Origin: a virus | Direction: 5' to 3' (one strand) | IMG/VR virus record: IMGVR_UViG_3300019890_000016 | Span: 1 to 25,159 of that record | DNA: 25,159 bases | In this document: one piece after another, positions 16,094-25,159 of the stretch | Layout: the number at the start of each line of letters is the position of its first letter | Numbering within the stretch: position 1 is the stretch's first letter | Program-made: the position numbers and the translations under genes | The notes under the pieces: generated by a model | Told to the model about the DNA's origin: nothing | Databases searched by the model: none | What the model saw: only the letters and a program-made list of their open reading frames with translations

Positions 16094-16384
16094 ATGCAAT
16101 CTGATATATCCAACAAAATTGATATCATTCTCGAAGAGCGAGGCCATCGTTATGGTAAATTTACAAGTCATGCTGAAGTTACTCAACGTATAAAGCGTAT
16201 CATTAATCAAGAACTGTGCGAAAGAAGTAAGATATTACAAGATGATCAACTAGAAGCCTTAGACATGATAGCCCACAAAATAGGCAGAATCATAAATGGC
16301 GATGCTGATTATAGCGATAGCTGGATTGATATTGCTGGCTATGCTAAGTTGGTTGCTGATAGATTGGATGGGATTATTAAATGA
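16094..16384 (+). CDS. DUF6378-like phage protein
   Basis: A 96-residue helical protein with ILEERGHRYGKFTSHAEVTQ (about 11-30) and LEALDMIAHKIGRIINGDAD, then YSDSWIDIAGYAKLVADRL. This 'RG..YG.f..ha......', 'eAl.miahKigRilnGd..y.DsW.DiaGYa.Lv...' pattern belongs to DUF6378, a frequent phage family. The arrangement of conserved Glu, His, Asp and Asp in helices resembles all-alpha nucleotide pyrophosphatases, which is only a suggestion. Its stop overlaps the endolysin start (ATGA). Confidence 0.7.
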   Translation: MQSDISNKIDIILEERGHRYGKFTSHAEVTQRIKRIINQELCERSKILQDDQLEALDMIAHKIGRIINGDADYSDSWIDIAGYAKLVADRLDGIIK

Positions 16385-17001
16385 CAATTAAATTCGACAT
16401 CGCAGTAAATTATGTACTAGAAAATGAAAAAGGTTTATCAACAGATAAAACCGATTTGGGCGGCATTACCAATTTTGGGATATCTGAAAAGTTTTTGTTT
16501 AATTTGAAGCCAAAAGATGAGCTTCCAATACGTACTAATGATGAAAGAAAAATAGCTTATCTTCCAGTTCGTGTGTTATTTGATCAGCCCTCATTTTTAA
16601 AAGATTATATTTTATATTTATCTATAGAGCGAGCTAAATTAATTTATAAAAATTATTTCTGGTTACCAATATATGAAGAAATAGACAGACAAGTTATTTG
16701 TAATTACATTTTCGATATGCACGTTCAGCATGGGCCGTACAAAGCTGCTGAATTAGTTCAGAGAAGTTTATGCGCATCAAACGAACAAATCAATTATATA
16801 AAAATTGATGGTCAATTCGGTGAAAATACATTATCAGAAATAAATGGATATCATTTCAGACAACTTTGCGATCTGGAATCTTTTGTAAGATGCTTAATTT
16901 CTTCTAGAGAATCTTTGTTTCGGTGCATAGCGGCTCATGATAAAACTCAAGAGAGCAAACTAGAAGGATGGCTGAAGAGATGTTACAAATTAAATTATTA
17001 A
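16381..17001 (+). CDS. Endolysin, glycoside hydrolase family 108
   Basis: A 206-residue protein without a signal peptide. Residues 11-34, starting YVLENEKG and ending TDLGGITNFGIS, align with the GH108 signature 'hEGGyvn.p.D.GG.TnyGIs': E16 is the expected catalytic Glu and D25-L-G-G follows at the right distance. The middle Gly of EGG is Lys here. The central part (ERAKLIYKNYFWLPIYEEID, then YIFDMHVQHGPYKAAELVQR) and the C-terminal IDGQFGENTLSEIN match the GH108 plus PG_binding_3 layout. It cleaves peptidoglycan to release progeny. With no export signal, it needs a holin, for which 15132-15344 is a candidate. Confidence 0.8.
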   Translation: MTIKFDIAVNYVLENEKGLSTDKTDLGGITNFGISEKFLFNLKPKDELPIRTNDERKIAYLPVRVLFDQPSFLKDYILYLSIERAKLIYKNYFWLPIYEEIDRQVICNYIFDMHVQHGPYKAAELVQRSLCASNEQINYIKIDGQFGENTLSEINGYHFRQLCDLESFVRCLISSRESLFRCIAAHDKTQESKLEGWLKRCYKLNY

Positions 17002-23639: not shown

Positions 23640-23690
23640 TTTACTATTTTTTTACTATTTCTTTACAATAGTAAAAAACGGTGTTATAAA
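23640..23690 (+). promoter_or_regulatory. Late promoter 2 with 11-bp-phased boxes (scaffold/coat)
   Basis: TTTACTA (23640-23646), TTTACTA (23651-23657) and TTTACAA (23662-23668) at an exact 11-bp period; -35 TTTACA (23662-23667), 17-bp spacer, -10 TATAAA (23685-23690). The upstream ~29 bp are almost identical to those before the packaging genes. It starts at the portal stop, so scaffold and coat get an extra dose relative to portal. Confidence 0.7.
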
Positions 23691-23698
23691 TACAACAG

Positions 23699-23794
23699 CT
23701 ACGGAGCTATCCGAATTTAAAAATAGTCGAGACCTATGCGTTATGTAGGGCAGACCATAACGAGACCCATGCGTAGTGGGGATAACCGTGACGG
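23699..23794 (+). promoter_or_regulatory. Structured leader of the scaffold gene, pseudoknot-capable
   Basis: Three successive elements start at GAGACCTATGCG, GAGACCCATGCG and AACCGTGACGG: hairpins CCTA/TAGG (23733-23736/23746-23749), CCCA/TGGG (23766-23769/23777-23780) and CCG/CGG (23786-23788/23792-23794). The loop of the first contains CGTTATG (23739-23745), which is fully complementary to CATAACG (23756-23762), so an H-type pseudoknot can form. Loop word CGTAG (23772-23776) of the second can pair with CTACG (23699-23703). A ribosome site (gaggt) and ATG follow 20-26 bases later. Confidence 0.6.
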
Positions 23795-23819
23795 GGCAAT
23801 AGTCAACAAGAGGTGTTAA

Positions 23820-24560
23820 ATGACCCAAGAAAATGTGGGTGACGTAAGTCAAAATCAGAGTTCCGAATCTTCGTCTGGGATATCTTCTTCAACAGAAAGC
23901 TATACAGCTCCTGTCGAAAAAATGATATCGCAAAGTAAAGTCGATGAAATTGTTAAATCAGTGAAATATGAAGGTAATCGCAGACTTGATGAATTAAGAC
24001 AAAAATATGAGTCTGGTTCTTCAAATAATGCGGCACCTGTTCCAGCCCAACAAGCGAATGTGAGTAAAGATGACGTATCGAAAATGATACAAGGAGCTTT
24101 ACAAAATGAATTATCAACATTGGCGCGCCAAGCTGAAGAACAAGTGCAGCAAAAACAAGTAAATGAACTGGTTAATAATTTCACCTCTAAAATGGACGCA
24201 GGGAAAGAAAAATACAGTGATTTTGATGATGTAACGAAGAACATCAATTTTGGTGCGATTCCGCATACGGTTGCGAGATTGACCACTGAAATTGATAATG
24301 GCACAGATGTCATATATGAACTTGCTAAAAACAAGCCGATGCAACTGATGCAATTAGAATCGTTATTATCTACGCAACCACATTTAGCCCGTCAAGCATT
24401 AAGAGAACTTTCCGAGTCGATTAAAGTAAATGACAAAGGAAAGCAAGTTCAACATGCAAGAGAGCCCTTGAGTCAACTAGCACAATCAAATGTTGGTGTA
24501 GATGATGGCTCCGATCTTTCCATTGGTGATTTAAGAAAAAATCCACCCTGGAAACGATAA
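23820..24560 (+). CDS. Scaffolding protein
   Basis: A 246-residue, Ser/Gln/Glu-rich protein with no hydrophobic core. An N-terminal disordered acidic stretch (VSQNQSSESSSGISSSTESY), a helical middle (VDEIVKSVKYEGNRRLDELR; LARQAEEQVQQKQVNELVNN), and a basic C-terminal end (GDLRKNPPWKR). Phage scaffolds typically show this low-complexity acidic front and a basic C-terminal coat-binding hook. Position between portal and coat is diagnostic. Gaggt ribosome site. It should guide coat assembly, then leave the procapsid. Confidence 0.75.
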   Translation: MTQENVGDVSQNQSSESSSGISSSTESYTAPVEKMISQSKVDEIVKSVKYEGNRRLDELRQKYESGSSNNAAPVPAQQANVSKDDVSKMIQGALQNELSTLARQAEEQVQQKQVNELVNNFTSKMDAGKEKYSDFDDVTKNINFGAIPHTVARLTTEIDNGTDVIYELAKNKPMQLMQLESLLSTQPHLARQALRELSESIKVNDKGKQVQHAREPLSQLAQSNVGVDDGSDLSIGDLRKNPPWKR

Positions 24561-24575
24561 AATTTCGTTATGAGA

Positions 24576-24618
24576 GACAGCCATTATCTAAAAATCGAGG
24601 ATTTTTATCATGGCTGTC
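24576..24618 (+). promoter_or_regulatory. Translational-control hairpin over the coat start codon
   Basis: GACAGCCAT (24576-24584) pairs perfectly with ATGGCTGTC (24610-24618), whose first three bases are the coat ATG. Inside, AAAAATC/GATTTTT (24590-24596/24600-24606) pair around loop GAG; the ribosome site gagga (24597-24601) is in the loop and first stem base. Start codon and ribosome site are therefore both within one RNA fold. Confidence 0.7.
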
Positions 24619-25159
24619 CCACAAAATGGTTTGCAAAATGTACAGACGTATCAAAAAACAGAACTTGCTTATCTTTTAAATGAATTTGCGCTTATTGCAA
24701 ATACTAATAAACGCTTCAAAAATTTCAATGACTTGACCGCAAATTTAGGCGATACAGTAACCTATGATGCGCCAGCTCGTTATTTAGGTTACAACGGTTT
24801 AGTAGTAACAATGCAGCCTTCCGTTCAACAAGTCGTCTCATTGACTTGCAGTCAAGCTTACAATATCTCAAGTGCGTTTACAGACCAACAATTTATTTTC
24901 AATGCGCGTTCTTATATTGACCGGTTCGATGAAGCCGCCATTAAAGAATTGGGTACTGCAATTGAATATGATATTGGATTGAATGCCATTAGCGGTGTGG
25001 TCATTAATGACCCTCAAAATTCAAATTTTGGTGTTAAACAAACTCAATCTGGGCCCTATCGATTCTATTACGCAGGACTAAGCGGCACAACGTTAACTCC
25101 GATAAATAGCTATACATTGCTGGCTCAAGCAATTGCTAATTTTAAAGATTATGGTGCAG
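24610..25159 (+). CDS. Major coat protein, P22-like (3' truncated)
   Basis: Opens with MAVPQNGLQNVQTYQKTELA and continues open to the right edge (183 full codons seen). 'LANTNKRFKNFNDLTANLGDTV..d.P.Ry...', 'V..vVSLTCSQAYNISSAFTDQQFIFN', 'F.E..I..a...lg..iEydi' match the N-terminal part of P22-type coat proteins (PF11651), which are about 430 residues, so more than half is outside. It forms the T=7 shell with scaffold help. Starts 49 bp after the scaffold stop, with the ATG buried in a hairpin. Confidence 0.8.
   Translation, partial: MAVPQNGLQNVQTYQKTELAYLLNEFALIANTNKRFKNFNDLTANLGDTVTYDAPARYLGYNGLVVTMQPSVQQVVSLTCSQAYNISSAFTDQQFIFNARSYIDRFDEAAIKELGTAIEYDIGLNAISGVVINDPQNSNFGVKQTQSGPYRFYYAGLSGTTLTPINSYTLLAQAIANFKDYGA

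Follow-up and report, generated by a model that had tools for sequence, protein, structure and literature searches.

A conserved hairpin over the coat start codon of uncultivated P22-like phages and a second partner of its left arm within the scaffold gene

Why should the start codon of a phage coat gene lie within a perfect RNA hairpin, one arm of which is itself coding? The question is raised by a linear phage fragment of 25159 bases, a complete IMG/VR record that is called the window here. The genes around the hairpin encode terminase subunits, a portal of P22 type (Pfam P22_portal, E 3e-84), a scaffold-like protein and then the coat. The features that the argument needs at the outset are these.

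23820-24560, + strand: scaffold gene, 246 codons plus the stop at 24558-24560, with its SD GAGG at 23810-23813
24576-24596, + strand: segment B, the left arm of the hairpin, non-coding, with the outer arm at 24576-24584 and the inner arm at 24590-24596
24597-24618, + strand: segment C, with the SD GAGG at 24597-24600, the inner right arm at 24600-24606, and the start codon plus two codons at 24610-24618, which form the outer right arm
24610-25159, + strand: coat (major capsid) gene, truncated at the end of the record, with the first 183 residues present

The coat protein has no sequence match in Pfam, PHROGs or PDB. An AlphaFold2 model of a full-length relative, L003 (pLDDT 82), resembles the coats of Sf6, CUS-3 and P22 (TM about 0.6-0.7; 5l35, TM 0.69/0.71; 8i1v), and the gene downstream of the hairpin is therefore identified as the coat gene. 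Its position, after a P22-type portal and a scaffold-like ORF, also fits this identification. The scaffold ORF in turn matches PHROG 8865, head scaffolding protein (E 6e-6), and sits between the portal and the coat. Cultured relatives of coat or scaffold were absent from INPHARED, in which only the portal found a match, at about 22% identity; IMG/VR holds at least 363 related coat loci, which makes these uncultivated P22-like phages an abundant group. Elsewhere in the window, positions 16381-16998 encode an endolysin with GH108 and peptidoglycan-binding domains (Pfam). Five coat relatives (L082-L086) lie in metagenome bins labelled Legionella, Methylococcaceae, Nitrospirae, Flavobacterium and Sulfuricurvum, which is weak evidence of host.

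The outer stem of the hairpin has 9 bp: GACAGCCAT (24576-24584) pairs without a mismatch with ATGGCTGTC (24610-24618), its exact reverse complement, and the latter consists of the coat ATG and the codons GCT and GTC. Within it, AAAAATC (24590-24596) and GATTTTT (24600-24606) form a perfect 7-bp inner stem with the loop GAG, which U24589-A24607 lengthens to 8 bp, and the coat SD GAGG (24597-24600) is placed at its tip. UAUC of segment B (24585-24588) finds no partner within the hairpin. The original prediction, made from sequence alone, had claimed a 9-bp stem holding the coat ATG and two codons, perfect in both arms despite coding, and an inner 7-bp stem with the ribosome site in its tip; both claims held, the inner stem being one pair longer. 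The MFE of the hairpin is -21.4 kcal/mol, and its folding z is -3.02 over 85 nt (3 of 200 shuffles were equally good) and -4.55 over 75 nt. At the Rfam gathering score no match was found across the window and only tRNAs were found in ten relatives, while the E-value mode returned chance-level matches only.

Whether such a structure means anything depends on the relatives. Coat relatives gathered from IMG/VR and GTDB genomes gave 98 distinct scaffold-coat junctions, 97 of them with enough upstream sequence to test. Mean folding z at these 97 junctions was -3.68, with z<-2 in 89%, whereas 385 other gene starts of the same loci gave -0.61 and 17% (Mann-Whitney p 4e-37). The unpaired probability of the SD region was 0.25 at coat junctions versus 0.53 at other gene starts, and the cost of opening the coat RBS had a median of 15.1 kcal/mol, compared with 6.2 at other starts; four cultured P22-like phages, which lack the hairpin and have spacers of -1 to 20 nt, gave 6.0-7.3. 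In all loci the coat ATG follows the scaffold stop at a distance of 46-76 nt (median 58), and the foot of the hairpin comes a median of 7 nt after this stop, and no more than 12 nt after it in 82%.

Three hairpin shapes occur among the junctions, which were sorted into classes by eye. In shape 1, the type of the window, the ATG is within the outer stem; in shape 2 the outer stem lies just 3′ of the ATG; in shape 3 a long hairpin holds the SD and the ATG is just outside. For the outer stem of 21 shape-1 loci, 83% of cells were paired versus 21-38% when one arm was slid, and the covariation score was 0.293 versus 0.144 after shuffling. These 21 rows (alignment A2) were picked by eye, which biases them toward pairing. 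No by-eye choice enters the comparison of own with swapped arms, and here none of the 10000 and 20000 permutations of arms among loci paired as well as the left and right arms of the same locus. The result remained when arms were exchanged only among loci whose first four residues are identical (-11.04 for own arms; the permutations had a mean of -9.64, and the best of 20000 reached -10.60). Moreover, eleven new junctions, found later through the leader element described below, behaved in the same way, with a mean z of -3.5 over 12 (one already known). Register and bulges of the outer stem vary among classes (gapless fixed-register count, 37 loci), and support for classes 2 and 3 comes from single folds together with the swap and z tests, MAFFT having misregistered the left arms for RNAalifold. 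Loop and stem sequences are highly variable among relatives and the shape is retained. Comparative sequence evidence thus shows that the hairpin is real and conserved, and that its arms covary beyond chance.

The left arm has a second partner, which lies in the coding sequence of the scaffold gene.

24499-24533, + strand: segment A, scaffold codons able to pair with segment B, with its core at 24501-24509 (codons D-D-G)

In the window the core of A, GATGATGGC (24501-24509), pairs with the core of B, GCCATTATC (24580-24588). When the left arm, taken as -58 to -20 relative to the coat ATG, was paired with the scaffold gene of its own locus, the energy was -25.26 kcal/mol, versus -19.69 (sd 0.41) with the scaffold genes of other loci, and none of 5000 permutations was as good. 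No clear signal was obtained for the right arm with the scaffold gene, for the left arm with the coat body, or for both arms with the scaffold leader (right arm with leader, p=0.057). In nearly all loci the best A site falls within -150 to -75 of the coat ATG; segment A itself lies at about -130 to -75, 15-70 nt 5′ of the scaffold stop and within the last ~25 scaffold codons.

The codons of A encode a conserved D-N-G-x-M-S-V stretch, and conservation of A is partly driven by protein, since the conserved peptide D-N-G is encoded by part of it. Conservation of protein could mimic conservation of RNA in a coding segment, and the two segments were therefore anchored independently of pairing, A by aligning the proteins and B by its UUAUC-type motif. 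With these anchors, which are blind to pairing, covariation with B is still seen at third codon positions of A: position 3 gave 36 Watson-Crick pairs with 28.0 expected, and position 6 gave 34 with 20.0 expected (best of 1000 shuffles, 30). In eleven held-out loci, some with an entirely different sequence, A:B pairing was again stronger within loci (own -26.08, permuted -20.12, p<5e-5), all sites lying at -128 to -77. In addition, the motif of TTATC type (UUAUC) is present in B at 28 of 66 non-redundant junctions, with 4.1 expected; it is enriched despite being partly unpaired in the hairpin because it pairs with A. Comparison thus shows that B has two coevolving partners, C and A, and that both pairings are kept by compensatory change.

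The A:B and B:C helices use the same nucleotides of B and are mutually exclusive. In full-length RNA the median difference over the loci favoured the closed state by 2.8 kcal/mol (IQR -6.6 to +3.0; window -4.1), closure being preferred in 42 of the 64, and from this median difference the two states are judged to be close in energy. The cost of opening the coat RBS dropped from 15.3 to 11.1 kcal/mol when A was present, and was 15.5 with A covered and 14.0 with A from a foreign locus. In RNA ending before C, at least 8 A:B pairs formed in 92% of loci (median 20), compared with 27% (median 3.7) for windows 150 nt upstream. The model hence predicts that A:B forms in nascent RNA ahead of the synthesis of C, and that covering A brings back full closure; both predictions, like the near balance of the two states, rest on calculation only. 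With a ribosome terminating at the scaffold stop and covering up to 12 nt beyond it, the opening cost was still about 14 kcal/mol, and simple melting by the terminating ribosome is not predicted, because the cost hardly drops (14.0). All energies were computed at 37 C for naked RNA, without tertiary contacts, proteins or ribosome queues.

We suggest that the three segments form an A/B/C switch, a translational attenuator whose closed state is the hairpin, and give this reading a probability of about 0.6; the direction of control is inferred and rests on no experiment. According to this model, B:C pairing would hide the coat SD and start codon and keep coat closed, and A:B pairing would release C and leave the coat start free. 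Ribosomes translating the 3′ end of the scaffold gene are inferred to cover A and leave B free to lock coat; when scaffold translation falls, A:B would form and coat would be made. The conserved UUAUC of B, some of which is left unpaired by the hairpin, may serve as a toehold for strand exchange. The direction of control could be wrong, because in most loci the equilibrium lies on the closed side even when no ribosomes are present. Given this preference for closure, which in the window amounts to about 4 kcal/mol, opening would need folding order, toehold exchange or a factor.

A second structured element lies upstream of the scaffold gene, and its parts in the window are as follows.

23662-23690, + strand: sigma70-like promoter, TTTACA 23662-23667, 17 nt, TATAAA 23685-23690; a consensus match only
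23702-23727, + strand: leader pseudoknot PK1, stem CGGA 23702-23705 with UCCG 23710-23713, and loop GCUA 23706-23709 with UAGU 23724-23727
23733-23762, + strand: extra pseudoknot-like unit, CCUA 23733-23736 with UAGG 23746-23749, and CGUUAUG 23739-23745 with CAUAACG 23756-23762; found by eye
23766-23780, + strand: leader hairpin at the P3 place, CCCA 23766-23769 with UGGG 23777-23780
23786-23805, + strand: leader pseudoknot PK2, stem CCG with CGG, and loop UGA 23789-23791 with UCA 23803-23805; just 5′ of the scaffold SD

This leader occupies the 100-130 nt 5′ of the scaffold ATG and consists of two H-type pseudoknots that flank a hairpin; PK2 stops, with its 3′ strand, a few nt short of the scaffold SD. 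Across 52 sequences, 92.6% of the PK1 and PK2 cells were paired versus 17-35% when slid, both members had changed in 12 of 13 pairs, and the covariation score was 0.465 versus 0.167. The middle hairpin also covaries in relatives (0.703 versus 0.238 shuffled). PK1 of the window, whose S2 includes one G-U pair, is outside the window's row in this 52-sequence alignment (A5) and is covered by a model match at 23686-23822. The short DNA pattern of PK2 alone gave 120 raw matches, mostly chance, and only the 16 contigs that passed covariance model R2 were used along with the loci already collected. All 16 have the leader directly 5′ of a scaffold-type ORF; the coat follows the scaffold in 13 and three are cut, and the coat locus of one contig, L206, was already in the set. 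The leader pseudoknots and the fixed order of elements (leader, A, hairpin) are shown by this comparative sequence evidence.

Some features of single loci may be added. A unit similar to the extra pseudoknot-like one of the window, with its 4-bp stem 1 and 7-bp stem 2, was seen in L005 only. In L282, L281 and others, extra genes (about 1-2 kb) stand between portal and leader, and the leader stays with the scaffold; in L044, three tRNA genes (1765-1836, 2455-2526 and 2532-2602) lie 5′ of the scaffold leader.

The promoter element, located between the portal and scaffold genes and in relatives frequently TTGACA-N16-18-AATAAT, scored at least 10 in 47% of 76 relatives, whereas a control region within the scaffold gene reached this score in 0%. 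Because this enrichment lies just 5′ of the leader, scaffold and coat are likely to be carried on a transcript of their own that begins with the pseudoknots, although no transcription start has been mapped. The leader is inferred to control translation of the scaffold, perhaps by binding scaffold protein, for which there are no binding data, and leader and A/B/C switch would jointly set the ratio of scaffold to coat. A bolder reading, which we consider less likely than not, is that the leader senses the supply of scaffold and sets scaffold translation, and that the A/B/C segments read the ribosome traffic on the scaffold gene, so that coat is on when scaffold is off. Each transcript would then make mainly scaffold or mainly coat, and the ratio would be kept without a transcription factor.

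Other explanations of the hairpin must be weighed against the switch. In positive translational coupling, ribosomes terminating on the scaffold gene would open the hairpin or re-initiate on coat, and coat would be made only where scaffold is made. The stop-ATG spacing (46-76 nt) and the nearness of the hairpin foot to the stop fit this geometrically, and the scaffold and coat genes of P22 overlap. However, if the ribosome covers 10-12 nt past the stop, the cost is still about 14 kcal/mol, 16-20 nt being required, and the coevolution of B with A is left unexplained, so that we consider coupling unlikely. A protein operator would resemble the coat operators of RNA phages: scaffold or coat protein, bound to the hairpin or to one of its two forms, would repress or activate the translation of coat. 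This is likewise improbable and has no binding data behind it. In its favour, the P22 scaffold regulates its own gene, as stated in the title of Wyckoff and Casjens 1985 (reference list of PMC5744158), and the conserved UUAUC is partly unpaired. It is general background that this autoregulation in P22 acts after transcription. Against an operator, loop and stem sequences vary strongly with the shape kept, which differs from a sequence-specific operator; UUAUC is accounted for by its pairing with A; and the hairpin is closed already without a repressor.

A third possibility follows the T4 genes e and soc: read-through transcripts would be closed, and a promoter or an RNA cut in the left arm would give translated transcripts that lack this arm. 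There is precedent in T4 (PMC3014915), and the loops are A/U-rich (0.77 AU). No sigma70-like signal was detected 5′ of coat (mean score 8.17 versus 8.42 shuffled), which does not exclude a phage-specific promoter, and A is again left without explanation; we regard this possibility as very unlikely. A hairpin of chance origin, or a palindrome acting at the DNA level such as a protein site, can be almost entirely set aside. A single 9-bp inverted repeat can arise by chance and the region is A+T-rich, but compensatory changes over about 100 junctions, the keeping of G-U pairs, the asymmetric loops and the A:B partner all speak against it. Coupling, operator and internal promoter or RNA cut have in common that none of them accounts for A.

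The remaining claims of the original prediction can be judged on this basis. It proposed translational control of coat, which is supported by covariation of the arms, the effect on translation being inferred; free divergence of the arms in relatives, named there as a refutation, was not seen, as the arms covary and own arms beat swapped ones. Among the three agents that it offered, ribosome movement through the scaffold gene is favoured, because the second partner of B lies in scaffold codons, while control by scaffold protein or by coat protein is not excluded. Its alternative, a stem acting as a transcript-processing site, received no specific support. It missed both the second partner of the left arm and the pseudoknot leader.

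No earlier description of the switch or the leader was found in the open-access literature searched. New are the second partner of the left arm in scaffold codons, and two structured RNA elements absent from Rfam, one of them a leader of tandem pseudoknots. The proportion of scaffold to coat in phages is a long-standing question, and the A/B/C switch would offer an answer at the level of RNA, with exact segments. A coding segment of one structural gene that releases the start of the next gene may also be a possible controller of the ratio between two genes.

Comparison with known systems places these elements among several precedents. P22 has the same gene order, related portal and coat folds, and a regulated scaffold. 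It differs in that its scaffold and coat genes overlap by one base and the hairpin is absent (z +0.4), and in having only 13 nt between portal and scaffold, which leaves no room for a leader. In T4, genes e, soc, 49 and I-TevI have the SD and/or AUG hidden in a helix, which lowers 30S binding (PMC3014915), and concealment of SD and AUG in a hairpin is a criterion that our hairpin meets. Gene e of T4 owes its opening to late promoters that lie within the left arm, a criterion not fulfilled here, where no enrichment of sigma70 type was found; the left arm of our hairpin, unlike those of T4, has a second partner. In coat/replicase control of MS2 type, as is well known, a start site is hidden by upstream coding sequence or by a hairpin of SD and AUG. 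The start is likewise hidden here by pairing, or by a hairpin holding SD and AUG, whereas the phages have dsDNA, the target is coat itself, and the predicted effect of the upstream coding segment is to free the start and not to conceal it.

For the leader, the nearest likeness is that of T4 gene 32, which carries an H-type pseudoknot 5′ of its RBS (PMC3014915); the scaffold leader shares this feature, with covariation in both helices of its two pseudoknots. According to the same review, of 2010, the gene 32 pseudoknot is perhaps the sole viral pseudoknot in translational autoregulation. The scaffold leader differs in having two or more tandem pseudoknots and a hairpin over about 100 nt, ending beside the SD.

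For the switch, the ermC and cat attenuators are the closest in logic. It is generally known that in these systems the downstream gene is opened when a drug stalls a ribosome on a short leader peptide. Both kinds of system have mutually exclusive helices, one of which hides the RBS, and a ribosome on an upstream coding segment would decide between them. In place of the short leader peptide, the upstream frame here is an entire structural gene, about 240-280 codons long, without any known stall or ligand, and the prediction for a ribosome on A is that it closes the gene that follows and does not open it. Because the defining criterion of a stall on a leader peptide is not met, we do not class the A/B/C segments as an attenuator in the strict sense, though they would work like one: the other criteria are satisfied, with two exclusive, conserved helices and a competing segment A placed in the upstream translated frame.
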